Below, one piece after another: positions 10,512 through 39,011 of a stretch of 64,000 nt of DNA; the stretch's first letter is position 1, and the number at the start of each line of letters is the position of its first letter. The position numbers and the translations under genes were made by a program. This stretch comes from Ancylobacter mangrovi (lineage in GTDB: Bacteria > Pseudomonadota > Alphaproteobacteria > Rhizobiales > Xanthobacteraceae). The stretch is taken from the NCBI RefSeq assembly GCF_024752355.1, contig NZ_JANTHZ010000012.1:62001-126000 (forward strand), read 5' to 3'. The notes below the pieces were generated by a model. The model was not told the DNA's origin. It did not search any database and was given only the letters and a program-made list of their open reading frames with translations.

Positions 10512-10845
10512 GCGTTCGCCGCTCCATTCCCGCCGGTGTATCCCGCAAAGCCGAATGGCCCCCGAGGGCGCGTCGCGCTGTCGGAGGTTGACCTCCGGGC
10601 TCACGGGCCCGGGCGGTGGTTCGGCTCGCGAGATGTGCGAGGATCGGCAGGGCTGTACTTTGGGAAGGTGGCGAAGTCAAGGAAACCGGCCCGTCGCCCG
10701 CTTCCCCGGCACCTTCCCGGCCCGCTTTCCGCGCCGGCCGGATCGCCCCGCGACCCGGCCGCCCGCCATGTTCGCGCAACCTTCCGCGCGCCGCAACGCC
10801 CGGCATGACGTGCTATCATCGCACGGGAATCGTGGAAGACGGGCC
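10512..10845. promoter_or_regulatory. Divergent gap with predicted ffh promoter
   Basis: This 334-base gap lies between ffh (minus) and the small gene at 10846 (plus). On the minus strand TTGACT (10675-10680) and TACAGC (10652-10657) are separated by 17 bases: a strong -35 with a moderate -10, giving a leader of about 135 bases before ffh. I see no convincing hexamer pair for the plus strand and no other gene; the rest is GC-rich without clear repeats. Confidence 0.4.
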
Positions 10846-34914: not shown

Positions 34915-36903
34915 ATGACCACCTCGAACCGCCCGACGCGTACACCGCCCAAGGAGGCCCCGACCGAGCCGCTCAAGCGCGCCGTCACCGGCTGCCTGCG
35001 CGCCATCGCCGGCGACCGCGAGATCGAGGTCACCTACGGCTCCGAGCGTCCCGGCTTCGCGGACGGGCGCGCCCGCCTGCCCGAGCCGGGCCGGCGCATG
35101 TCCAAGCAGGACGCGGCGGTGATGCGCGGCCACGCCGATTCGATGGCGCTGCGCCTCGCCTGCCACGACCCCAAGGTGCACCGCCGGCTGGTGCCGCAGG
35201 GCCAGACCGCCCGCGCCGCCTTCGAGGCCGCCGAGCAGACCCGCTGCGAGGCGCTCGGCGCGCTGCGCATGGACGGGGTCGCGCTCAACCTCTCGGCCAT
35301 GCTGGAGGACCGCTACCAGAAGGCCAATTTCGCCAATCTCGCCGACCGCTCCGACGCGCCGATCGAGCACGCGCTCTCGCTCATGCTGCGCGAGCGCATG
35401 ACCGGCATGGCCCCGCCTGCGGCCGCGCGCGAGCTGGTGAACCTCTGGCGCGGCTTCGTCGAGGAGCGCGGCGGCGCGGCGCTGGACGAGCTCGCCGGCT
35501 CGGCCGACGACCAGTCCCGCTTCGCCGAGGCGATGCGCGACCTGCTCTCCTCGCTCGGCATGGGCGAGGACATCGCCCCGTTCGACGAGAACAACGACCC
35601 CTCCACCGACGCCGACGACCGCCAGGACGAGGATTCCGGGCAGGGCAGCGAGGCGGACCAGGAGGACAGCTCGGAAGGCACCACCGAGGTCGACACCGAC
35701 CTTTCCTCCGACCAGACGCCGGAGGAGAGCGAGGAGCAGCAGGAGCAGCCCAGCTCCGAGCTGGCGGACGACACCGAGCTCGGCGAATCCGACGAATCCT
35801 CCGAGCCCTGGCGCCCGCAGAACGCGGTGCCCAGCGAGCCGCGCCCACCCGAATACCATCCCTTCACCCCGCGCTTCGACGAGACGGTGAACGCGGACGA
35901 GCTGTGCGACCCGGAGGAGCTGGCGCGGCTGCGCGCCTATCTCGACAAGCAGCTCGTCCATCTGCAGGGCATCGTGGCACGCCTCGCCAACCGGCTGCAG
36001 CGCCGGCTGATGGCGCAGCAGAGCCGCGGCTGGGAGTTCGACCTCGAGGAAGGCATGCTCGACCCGGCGCGCCTGCACCGCGTCATCCTCGACCCGATGC
36101 AGCCGCTCTCCTTCAAGCGCGAGCGCGACACCGACTTCCGCGACACGGTGGTGACGCTCCTGCTCGACAATTCCGGCTCGATGCGCGGGCGCCCGATCAC
36201 GGTCGCCGCCGCCTGCGCGGACATACTGGCGCGCACGCTCGAGCGCTGCGGGGTGAAGGTCGAGATCCTCGGCTTCACCACCAAGGCGTGGAAGGGCGGG
36301 CAGGCGCGCGAAGCGTGGCTCTCCTCCGGCAAGCCGGGCTCGCCCGGCCGCCTGAACGACCTGCGCCACATCATCTACAAGGCCGCCGACGCCCCCTGGC
36401 GCCGGGCGCGGCGCAATCTCGGCCTGATGATGCGCGAGGGCCTGCTGAAGGAGAACATCGACGGCGAGGCGCTCGACTGGGCGCATAACCGCCTGCTGGC
36501 GCGCAATGAATCGCGCCGCATCCTGATGATGATCTCCGACGGCGCGCCGGTGGACGATTCCACCCTCTCGGTGAACCCGGGCAACTATCTCGAGCGCCAC
36601 CTGCGCTGGGTGATCCAGCAGATCGAGGACAAGTCCCCGGTCGAGCTGATCGCCATCGGCATCGGCCATGACGTGACGCGCTACTACAAGCGCGCGGTCA
36701 CCATCGTCGACGCCGAGGAGCTGGGCGGTGCCATGACCGAGAAGCTGGCCGAGCTGTTCGACGAGCGCTCCCGCGGCGACAAGGGCGGCAAGGAGATGGC
36801 CGGACGGCCCTCGCGCCCGAGCCCCGGCATCCGCCTCGCGGGCTCCGGCGCAGGCGCTTCGGGTGCCGGCGCGACGCCGATCCCCACGCGCCGCGTGCAC
36901 TGA
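34915..36903 (+). CDS. cobT: Cobaltochelatase subunit CobT
   Basis: CobT is the von Willebrand A-type partner of CobS in CobNST. The 662-residue protein has an N-terminal domain (1-215), a strongly acidic disordered stretch (about 218-300, rich in Glu/Asp/Ser/Gln), and a C-terminal VWA domain whose metal site DNSGSM lies in [28 protein letters not shown], with [21 protein letters not shown] and [18 protein letters not shown] following. ATG at 34915. An intrinsic terminator follows at 36970. Confidence 0.96.
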
Positions 36904-36911
36904 GCGGGGCG

Positions 36912-36995
36912 AGCCGGCCTGAAGAGAGGCCGGCTTAAGCTCCGGGCGAGAGGTGGCGTCCGGGAAAACGCAGGCGATGCGCTCGCCTGCCTTTT
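36912..36995 (+). terminator. Two hairpins ending the cobT transcript
   Basis: AGCCGGCCT (36912-36920) pairs with AGGCCGGCT (36927-36935) but lacks a T run. The second hairpin, GCAGGCGA (36970-36977) with TCGCCTGC (36983-36990), loop of 5, is followed by CTTTT and is the better intrinsic terminator for cobS-cobT. Confidence 0.7.
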
Positions 36996-37100
36996 CGGGA
37001 TCGCCGCTTTTCGATGGACATCCGCGCGGGTGACGGTCGCCGGCGCCTAGGCCTTCTCAGACCGGCGAAAACATGCCCGCCGCAATCGCCCGTCGCCCCC

Positions 37101-37130
37101 TTGAACGGCGGGCATGCACCCCCATATAGG
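37101..37130 (+). promoter_or_regulatory. Predicted promoter of the intergenic small RNA
   Basis: TTGAAC (37101-37106) and ATATAG (37124-37129) are 17 bases apart on the plus strand, close to the alphaproteobacterial sigma-70 pattern. Transcription would start near 37136, right where the first long complementary stem begins. There is no open frame with a ribosome site downstream in this orientation before the strong terminator. Confidence 0.5.
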
Positions 37131-37135
37131 CTTCA

Positions 37136-37320
37136 ACCCGCCAGAAAGGGCTTTCGGCATGTTGGCGCCTCGTCAGCGCCTCGCCGATCGGACCGGGGTC
37201 AGGACGGATGTACTCCGGCCACGGTCTTTCCCTCCGGTCGCCTGACGAGCGGCCGGCATCTGGCGGTGCTCTTTCTTTGGAACGAGCCGGGGCGTACCGA
37301 AAGGTGCGCCCTTTTTCTTT
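37136..37320 (+). ncRNA. Candidate structured small RNA with intrinsic terminator
   Basis: About 180 nt between cobT and the convergent hemY. Nested perfect stems: CCGCCAG (37138-37144) with CTGGCGG (37260-37266); CTCGTCAG (37169-37176) with CTGACGAG (37242-37249); GACCGG (37191-37196) with CCGGTC (37234-37239). The bubble between the first two stems has 24 bases on the left and 10 on the right. A separate hairpin GGGCGTACC-GAAA-GGTGCGCCC (37290-37311) with one wobble pair is followed by TTTTTCTTT. The rod with a central bubble and a length near 180 nt recalls 6S RNA, but I cannot confirm the family. No coding signal is seen. Structure is read directly; that it is expressed is inference. Confidence 0.6.
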
Positions 37321-37394
37321 GCCTGTCCCACAGCAGCCGAGGCCCATTGCCGCGCGAGCGGGAGGCGCCGCCCGCCGGGACGGGCGGCCCCCGA

Positions 37395-39011
37395 TCACAC
37401 GCCGAAGGTCGCGCGCTTCTCGCTGGTCTCGTCCTCGGGAAACGGGCCCGGGCCGGGATCGTCCGGCAGGTGCGGCGCGGCGACCACCGGCTGGGCCAGC
37501 GGCACCGAACGGTGCGCGGCGGCCGGGGACGGCACCGGCGCGGGGGTGTCGATCGGCTTGGGCACCGGATCGGCCGCCGGCGGGGTCTTCAGCGGCGCGG
37601 GGTCGAAGGCGGCGGCATCGGCGGCCGCGCTCTCCACCTCGTTCTTGATCTCCTTGGCCGCACGGCTCTCCAGCGCGGCGGCGATCGCCGCCTTCACCCG
37701 GTCGGCCTCGTTCTCCAGCAGCGGCGTCGCCGCCACGCCCGGCGGCAGCCGCCACTCGAAGGCGTCGAGCTTGCCGGTCACCGGCGACACCGGGCCCCAG
37801 TTCTCCGCTACCACGCCGTCGGCGACCCAGGCCGGGTCGCGCGGCGCGCGCACCGCACGCGCGGTCCATTCGCGCGCCTTGCCGACATCACCATTCTCCG
37901 CCGCCTCCAGCTCCGCCATCAGCAGGCAGGTGCGCTGCGACGGCTCGCCCAGCAGCGGGCCGAGCGAGGTTCGCGCGACGTCGAACTCCTGCGCGTCGAG
38001 CGCGGCGCGGGCGAGCGCCAACGCGCTCTCGGCATGGGCCGGCATGCGCGCGGTCAGGGTGCGCATGCGCTTCAGCCGCTCGCGCGAGGAGTCGCCGGGC
38101 CGCAAATGCAGATAGGCGTCGGCGAGATCGGGGTGCGGCGTCGCCGCATAGGCGGTCTCCAGCACCTTGGCGGCCTTGCGCGTGTCGCCATTGGCGCCGA
38201 GCAGGCGGCCGGCGGCCTCGGCCGCGGGCACAAGGGTCGGCGCGAGGCGGGTCGCCTCCACCGCCTTCTCGCGCGCCACCGCCGGATCGGCCAGCTCGAG
38301 CGCCTGCGCCTGCGCCGCCAGCAGCACGGCACGGCGGCGGCGATGCGCGGCGCGGTCGAGCCCGCCATGGGCGGCCTCGCGCTCCAGCACCGCCAGCGCG
38401 CCGGCGAAGTCGCCGGCATGGCAGCGCGCCTCGATCACCGCATCCGCCGCCCAGGCGAGACCGGGCTCGTAGCGGGCGGCTTCCTCCGCCGCCATCAGCG
38501 CCGCATTGGCGTCGCCGCGACGGCGCGCCTCGACATGCAGGCCGCGCAGGCCGAGCATCCGGGTCGAGGTGGTCTCGGTCATGGCGCGGAAGGTCGCCTC
38601 GGCGCCAGCCGCGTCGCCCGAGAGCTGCGCTGCCTGCGCGGTGAGCAGGTGCGTCAGCGGCTCCTGTCCGAGCAGGCGCTGGGCGTCGTTGGCCGCGCGC
38701 TTGGCGCCGAGCGTGTCGCCCGAGCCGACCGCGACCAGCCCGCGCGAGATCGCCGCCCAGCCTCGGTTGCGGCGGCGCTGGCGGTAGGAGCCGGCGATCA
38801 TGTCGGGCGAGCGCACGATCAGCCGCAGCAGCGACCACAGCAGGATCACCGCCGCGACCAGCACCAGAAGGCCGCTCGCGGCCACCAGCACGCTGGTCTC
38901 GATGTGCCAGCCCTGCCAGTCCATGGCGATGGTGCCCGGACGGTCGGCGAGCCAGGCGACGCCGAAGGCGATCCCGGCGAGGATCAGCAGATAGACGACG
39001 AGCCGGATCAT
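37395..39011 (-). CDS. hemY: HemY-type membrane TPR protein
   Basis: A 538-residue protein of the HemY_N/COG3898 family found at the end of proteobacterial hemCD operons. Two N-terminal helices (residues 2-20 and 40-64: VVYLLILAGIAFGVAWL and SVLVAASGLLVLVAAVILLW) precede a cytoplasmic-side run of TPR-like repeats (SRGLVAVGSGDTLGAKRAANDAQRLLG and following). The C-terminal 80 residues are Pro/Ala-rich. It is not protoporphyrinogen oxidase, which shares the name in other bacteria; its biochemical role is unknown, with a link to haem synthesis by context. Its ATG overlaps the stop of the upstream gene by 4 bases. Confidence 0.9.
   Translation of the reverse strand: MIRLVVYLLILAGIAFGVAWLADRPGTIAMDWQGWHIETSVLVAASGLLVLVAAVILLWSLLRLIVRSPDMIAGSYRQRRRNRGWAAISRGLVAVGSGDTLGAKRAANDAQRLLGQEPLTHLLTAQAAQLSGDAAGAEATFRAMTETTSTRMLGLRGLHVEARRRGDANAALMAAEEAARYEPGLAWAADAVIEARCHAGDFAGALAVLEREAAHGGLDRAAHRRRRAVLLAAQAQALELADPAVAREKAVEATRLAPTLVPAAEAAGRLLGANGDTRKAAKVLETAYAATPHPDLADAYLHLRPGDSSRERLKRMRTLTARMPAHAESALALARAALDAQEFDVARTSLGPLLGEPSQRTCLLMAELEAAENGDVGKAREWTARAVRAPRDPAWVADGVVAENWGPVSPVTGKLDAFEWRLPPGVAATPLLENEADRVKAAIAAALESRAAKEIKNEVESAAADAAAFDPAPLKTPPAADPVPKPIDTPAPVPSPAAAHRSVPLAQPVVAAPHLPDDPGPGPFPEDETSEKRATFGV

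Follow-up and report, generated by a model that had tools for sequence, protein, structure and literature searches.

A predicted small RNA gene between cobT and hemY

The window, i.e., the entire 64,000-nt stretch of Ancylobacter mangrovi DNA that was analyzed, contains a gap between two convergent genes, which were confirmed by profile matches as cobT (TIGR01651, 946.9 bits) and the gene of a HemY-N TPR protein (PF07219, 96.1 bits), in agreement with a preliminary description of this DNA. The gap harbors a candidate small RNA (sRNA) gene on the plus strand (Table 1), whose 5' end was inferred 7 nt past the -10 element and whose 3' end was placed within the T run. The letters previously reported for the promoter-like pair, the closing stem, the GAAA terminator, and a perfect complement between CTCGTCAG (37169-37176) and CTGACGAG (37242-37249) are all correct in the sequence of the window.

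Table 1. Predicted features of the cobT-hemY gap (positions in the window; 37101-37320 under study)
Feature	Position	Strand	Remark
Promoter-like pair	37101..37129	+	TTGAAC 37101-37106, 17-base spacer, ATATAG 37124-37129
Predicted sRNA gene	37136..37319	+	Transcript of ~180 nt; conserved in 30/30 genus genomes; fold z -3.98
P1, 5' strand CCGCCAGA	37138..37145	+	8-bp perfect closing stem with 37259-37266
P1, 3' strand TCTGGCGG	37259..37266	+	Partner of 37138-37145
PJ, 5' strand AGGG	37147..37150	+	Partner CCCU 37230-37233
P2 hairpin	37154..37187	+	Apical loop CTCGTCA 37169-37175
P3 hairpin	37190..37227	+	Invariant GGACGGATGTACTCC at 37202-37216
P4 hairpin	37234..37256	+	Apical loop CTGACGA 37242-37248, complementary to P2 loop
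Small linker hairpin before terminator	37268..37287	+	From folding; differs among species
Intrinsic terminator, GAAA loop, TTTTTCTTT tail	37289..37319	+	Stem 37289-37312; from terminator scan

The earlier estimate that these parts do not coincide by chance is borne out by the fold of the plus-strand RNA (-93.5 kcal/mol; z = -3.98), the stability of which was reached in 0 of 200 shuffles, and by a scan for terminator-like sites that found three compared with 0.4 expected; the minus strand of the same region folds with z = -2.47. Because a strict sigma-70 scan returned 0 promoter hits, the promoter call rests on the position kept in relatives. In 28 of the 30 Ancylobacter genomes, the scanned stretch has a CTTG box at offset 86-89, the other two having insertions in P2, and the spacing equals that of the window in 24 of 30 relatives; the script demanded CTTG, so that only position and spacing are informative. 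A script detected a perfect stem followed by T4 in 21 of the 30 Ancylobacter relatives and none in the other nine.

A DNA search of 61 genomes detected the element in all 30 Ancylobacter genomes, its own included, and cobT and hemY flank it in 30/30 loci. Outside the genus, the same search gave a single match of 29 bases (G053; E = 9.5e-4), which looks like chance. Short secondary matches of 32 to 57 bases were seen in three genomes of this set (G008, G023, and G028). Two tandem copies, 256 to 285 bases apart, are present in four of the 30 Ancylobacter loci (L017, L027, L028, and L029); the stretch between them carries CCCGACAGGGTGA ... TCACCCTGTCGGG-like inverted repeats, and both copies may belong to a single longer RNA. 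The model R1, whose training set includes the window element, matches positions 37135-37273 with 145.4 bits, and a family-wide R1 search, which is insensitive with 16 candidates scored per genome, identified 12 of 198 genomes, all of the own genus. The cobT loci of 24 genomes, which represent as many other genera of the family, yielded no hemY with tblastn and nothing above chance with R1 (best score, 15.2 bits). An ancestral site next to cobT was rejected, since both hemY and the element are absent from these loci.

Long mechanical ORFs span the gap, and frame 0 is free of stops in 24 of 29 copies at this G+C content; a protein-coding function was rejected, because neither the start codon nor the frame is retained in relatives and single-base indels occur among the rows. 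No Rfam 15 family was found at gathering score at this site of the window. In 12 relatives, hits at gathering score were limited to a tRNA and a group II intron, and a search by E-value of nine further loci and one Microvirga element gave none at its cut-off. The suhB/mmgR family (RF00519) of alphaproteobacterial sRNAs matches the terminator half alone (37261-37326), and weakly, its score of 16.1 bits staying below the gathering score of 41. A literature search (mostly open literature, main texts) retrieved no description of such an RNA for Ancylobacter, Microvirga, Kaistia, cobT-hemY, or the motif letters, and the main texts of a 50-genome and a 26-genome RNA survey gave 0 hits for the genus and order names.

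Fold and covariation in Ancylobacter

An alignment of the cobT-hemY gap of related genomes had been proposed as a check on the stems, and its pairs do covary. In the MAFFT alignment of 29 Ancylobacter copies, which leaves out five with insertions, 96.0% of the cloverleaf cells are paired, compared with 91.1% in shuffles, 15 pairs show double changes (8.5 in shuffles), and the covariation score amounts to 0.210 (0.122 in shuffles). The observed covariation was reached by 0 of 500 shuffles on four of five measures and by 1 of 500 on the fifth, and sliding the pairing partners cut the paired cells to 33 to 46%. With 76 G-U cells versus 20 A-C cells in the alignment, the plus strand is favored.

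The individual helices contribute unequally to this signal. The closing helix P1 has 92.2% of its cells paired, and its column pair 7-134 changes from C-G to U-A in 8 of 29 rows. The inner stem of P2 is 100% paired with double changes in three of five pairs, and its outer stem is 96.0% paired; the outer pairs of P3 covary in the 29 rows and also according to RNAalifold, and P4 is 99.6% paired. For PJ, 91.4% of the cells are paired, and a double change is seen in two of four pairs, in one row each. Without a supplied structure, RNAalifold draws P1, P2, P3, and P4, with PJ absent, and the lowest-energy folds of the 29 single sequences include P1 in 27, PJ in 18, the inner P2 stem in 22, P3 in 29, and P4 in 27 cases. 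PJ is the weakest and least certain helix and is put forward less firmly than the others.

The preliminary description had paired the bases of the window into a nested rod. The bases that it named for the stems were correct, but the rod itself is probably not the conserved fold: in a forced choice, the cloverleaf is lower in energy in 27 of 29 rows, by 5.6 kcal/mol on average, and the stems of P2 and P4 covary. In the window itself the cloverleaf is ahead by 0.6 kcal/mol only, and the centroid is rod-like; the RNA may switch between rod and cloverleaf. Judging from the aligned sequences, we have good confidence in an architecture in which the closing helix P1 and an inner PJ carry the hairpins P2, P3, and P4, with loop-loop pairing of P2 and P4. 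The claim of an undescribed structured RNA on the plus strand has stood up, the element being conserved, covarying, and without an Rfam match at cut-off. It very probably represents a new family of expressed RNAs and is regarded here as a new family rather than a new kind of molecule.

Relatives beyond the genus and the P2/P4 loops

The core GGACGGAUGUACUCC of P3 (window 37202-37216) is identical in 29/29 rows, and the same 15 bases occur in every other accepted member; the scans mostly required the P3 letters, and P3 is thus invariant only among members that such scans can find. A partial check is provided by two members (L192 and L195) that were found via the 3' domain alone, yet carry GGACGGATGTACTCC. 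Among 84,980 species genomes, the P3 20-mer YAGGACGGATGTACTCCGRC is present in 58 stretches, 56 of which were assigned to the RNA from their surroundings; the other two (L051 and L094) are located inside polyphosphate kinase genes. The 56 stretches comprise 21 of Ancylobacter type (17 so named), 24 from Microvirga, 9 of Kaistia type (six so named), and one each from Prosthecomicrobium and Chthonobacter. Six Microvirga genomes contain two or three 20-mer stretches each, and copies on plasmids were found in Microvirga sp. VF16 and M. lotononidis. No match of the 20-mer was found in virus contigs and none of the window element in a search against plasmids.

With one mismatch allowed, a 17-mer was recovered from 22 of 397 genomes of the order, including the families f23, f35, and f45; two of the hits (L107 and L123) look like chance. 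The exact 15-mer is present in 3 of 347 genomes of the class, one of them being the genome under study and the other two falling outside the Hyphomicrobiales. Members outside the order were rejected, since one of these hits (L235) lies in a polyphosphate kinase gene and the other (L237) on the opposite strand of a Clp protease gene. The polyphosphate kinase look-alikes L051, L094, and L235, which stem from other alphaproteobacteria, score 26 to 27 bits with R1, so that R1 scores of this size prove nothing. Eight distant members (L048, L050, L072, L109, L120, L121, L124, and L125) with R1 scores of 18 to 30 bits, hardly if at all above those of the look-alikes, were accepted by eye based on a promoter-like box, hairpins, and a terminator.

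The relatives are spread over several replicons with dissimilar gene contexts, usually as free-standing copies, most of them with a terminator-like end. Standalone copies of Kaistia type lie just upstream of rnd, encoding RNase D (3'-5' exonuclease, HRDC), as identified by Pfam for L058 and L109 and by eye for the others. The other loci have no neighbor in common in a scan of 20 ORFs, of which 10 matched no Pfam family and are possibly spurious high-GC frames, and common neighbor genes were rejected as a functional clue beyond the rnd of the Kaistia copies. In four genomes of the Kaistia family (L128 to L131), the motif is found in cspA leaders, 189 to 190 bases before a CspA-like start; these modules score 33 to 38 bits with R1, no terminator was seen by eye before the gene, and all four genomes also have a standalone copy elsewhere. 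A further copy (L106:1445-1582, minus strand; 60.8 bits) immediately precedes a gene whose product is RadA-like, with matches to KaiC ATPase, Zn ribbon, and ChlI, and no obvious terminator separates the two. In 53 other CspA loci, fetched from 26 relatives and 41 genomes of the order (overlapping sets), R1 detected no element, and the motif was not found within three mismatches except for one three-mismatch site; a general cspA leader element was rejected on account of its absence from these loci. The cspA thermoregulator (RF01766) shares with the element the position in front of cspA in the four Kaistia-family genomes, but its matches are weak, with 33.4 and 25.4 bits at a cut-off of 78, and they extend from close to the element's 3' end into the coding sequence.

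The 3' part differs among the lineages. In Microvirga, conservation continues through a second 3' domain, GCCCAGGC...GCCUGGGC-UUUU, which ends at the T run; a similar domain is present in Kaistia, Prosthecomicrobium, and f35, and none was seen in Ancylobacter. At L054:4100-4185 and equivalent sites, this 3' domain (GCCCAGGCCCGUAG...CCGGAGCCUGGGC-UUUU) is more than a plain terminator. In one Microvirga copy, a group II intron match (L076:5875-5951, minus strand) occupies the expected end of the 3' domain.

The complement of CTCGTCAG and CTGACGAG most likely reflects a loop-loop (kissing) contact of P2 and P4, because it coincides with their apical loops and because the stems of both hairpins covary. 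The loops of the window, CUCGUCA and CUGACGA, allow 6 pairs. The kissing pairs are 97.1% paired in Ancylobacter, with no double change. The 22 Microvirga/Chthonobacter rows contain 15 double-change pairs compared with 5.5 in shuffles, and their kissing helix is 99.1% paired with one double change. Compensation is seen between Chthonobacter (GCAUCA/UGAUGC) and Microvirga (CGUCA/UGACG), and among the cspA leaders of the Kaistia family, two genomes have UUGUC/GACAA and two have UCGUC/GACGA. In a swap test across nine lineages, the own loops reached 127 versus a mean of 108.6 for swapped loops (P = 0.001), and shuffled loops had a mean of 63.8 and a maximum of 92. The kissing is weak in L125, L023, and L026, each with four complementary bases, and in L019/L020 with one mismatch. 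P2/P4 complementarity is not shared by the Kaistia standalone copies and family f35; of 16 rows from these, 10 have a GNRA tetraloop as the P2 loop according to a script.

Possible modes of action

The explanation that best covers the observations, to which we assign a probability of about 50%, is a new family of free-standing sRNAs that act in trans as a scaffold presenting P3. The free-standing gene would give rise to a structured sRNA in which the P2/P4 loop contact, intra- or intermolecular, would lock the junction and hold out P3, and the sequence GGA-CGGAUGUAC-UCC of P3 would be read by a protein partner. With the same module in some cspA leaders of Kaistia, the partner would also act on mRNAs, and the free copies, which are arranged in tandem in four Ancylobacter genomes and number several per Microvirga genome, would titrate this partner or compete for it. 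A P3-reading protein is suggested by an unchanging hairpin on a covarying scaffold, by multiple or tandem free copies, and by the copy before a stress gene; as a mode of action, the protein-presenting scaffold or decoy is put forward tentatively. More speculative, and doubtful as a whole, is a module that would self-associate via P2-P4 kissing in some genera and via a palindromic P4 in others and would show P3 to a regulator also acting on the cspA leader; such a portable scaffold would serve both as a regulator in free form and as part of mRNA leaders on chromosomes and plasmids across the Hyphomicrobiales.

The element adds a covariation-supported RNA family without a match in Rfam 15. A 15-base hairpin that stays the same in several bacterial families implies that its partner is conserved too and can be captured. 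The change from complementary loops to palindromic ones represents a natural test of whether the loops kiss within one molecule or between two, and the cspA-leader copy in some Kaistia may serve as a readable reporter. One candidate partner could be dismissed. CsrA is a reader of ACGGA loops with AnGGA motifs as its sites, and the A-C-GGA shown by the P3 loop (ACGGAUGU) resembles decoys of the CsrB/RsmY type, but the hosts of the element lack CsrA: csrA (PF02599) was detected in 0 of 42 genomes and in 0 of 12 further genomes with relatives, eight of them Microvirga, with 3 of 14 controls positive, which excludes a CsrA decoy.

Several alternatives have to be weighed against a scaffold that presents P3 to a protein. 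The P4 loops, and the P2 loops with them, could pair between molecules and form a dimer or multimer made of RNA only, an oligomeric scaffold comparable to the large ornate RNAs. OLE, ROOL, and GOLLD are much larger than the element with its core of ~140 nt. A study on these RNAs describes kissing loops, some of them backed by covariation, that bridge chains, and a GOLLD loop contact first detected by covariation that turned out to be intermolecular (PMC12286853); the likeness lies in the kissing loops reported there, self-association of the element being only possible. The idea is favored by the two tandem copies in four Ancylobacter genomes and by the P4 loops of the copies with noncomplementary P2 and P4, i.e., the Kaistia standalone copies and f35, where 11 of 12 distinct loops have a palindrome of at least 6 bases, which none of the 12 loops of the kissing group has, but these loops were cut by eye and are mutually related, several palindromes extend into a self-complementary stem, the chance of a 6-base palindrome is 0.08 to 0.26 per shuffled loop, and the P4 loop of L120 has no such palindrome. 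Self-complementary P4 loops may thus hint at RNA dimers, which is suggestive only. An RNA-only oligomer is rather unlikely in our estimation; self-association as such is compatible with a protein reading P3. We consider it slightly less likely still that the element is an antisense sRNA whose P3 loop (GGAUGUA) or C-rich stretch before P4 would pair with mRNAs, the rest serving as a stabilizer. Most base-pairing sRNAs are standalone and have their own promoter and terminator, and the promoter-like box, the terminator, and the exposed invariant loop of 9 nt would fit this pattern, but the conserved bases include the paired stem (GGA/UCC) and extend beyond a seed. A perfect 12-base complement of P3 was found only at the RNA gene itself in three of six genus genomes, and a conserved long antisense target of P3 was rejected on these grounds.

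A cis-acting leader or attenuator, i.e., an RNA sensor of the downstream gene, would match the four cspA leaders of the Kaistia family and the one upstream region of radA, for which no terminator was seen by eye, but in the window hemY is convergent and no gene on the same strand follows directly, and elsewhere the contexts are unlike and terminator-like ends intervene, which makes a general cis function improbable. The least probable reading, and a very unlikely one, is a 6S-like RNA that would bind RNA polymerase. The preliminary description had noted a resemblance to 6S RNA, and the similar length, the closing stem, the own promoter-like box, and a bubbled rod nearly as stable in the own genome would agree with it. 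The element is, however, branched with loop-loop pairing instead of a rod with a central bubble, and the P2 and P4 stems, which the rod breaks, are those that covary. The comparison with the RF00013 model that had been recommended gave no match in the 64 kb at gathering score and none in 36900-37420 at E values up to 10, and the identity with 6S RNA was rejected, as the genome has a separate true 6S RNA on another contig (G000:C4:111180-111336, 88 bits). Elsewhere in the window, an ffh sRNA (RF01793, 61.6 bits) is located at 10551-10602 on the minus strand.
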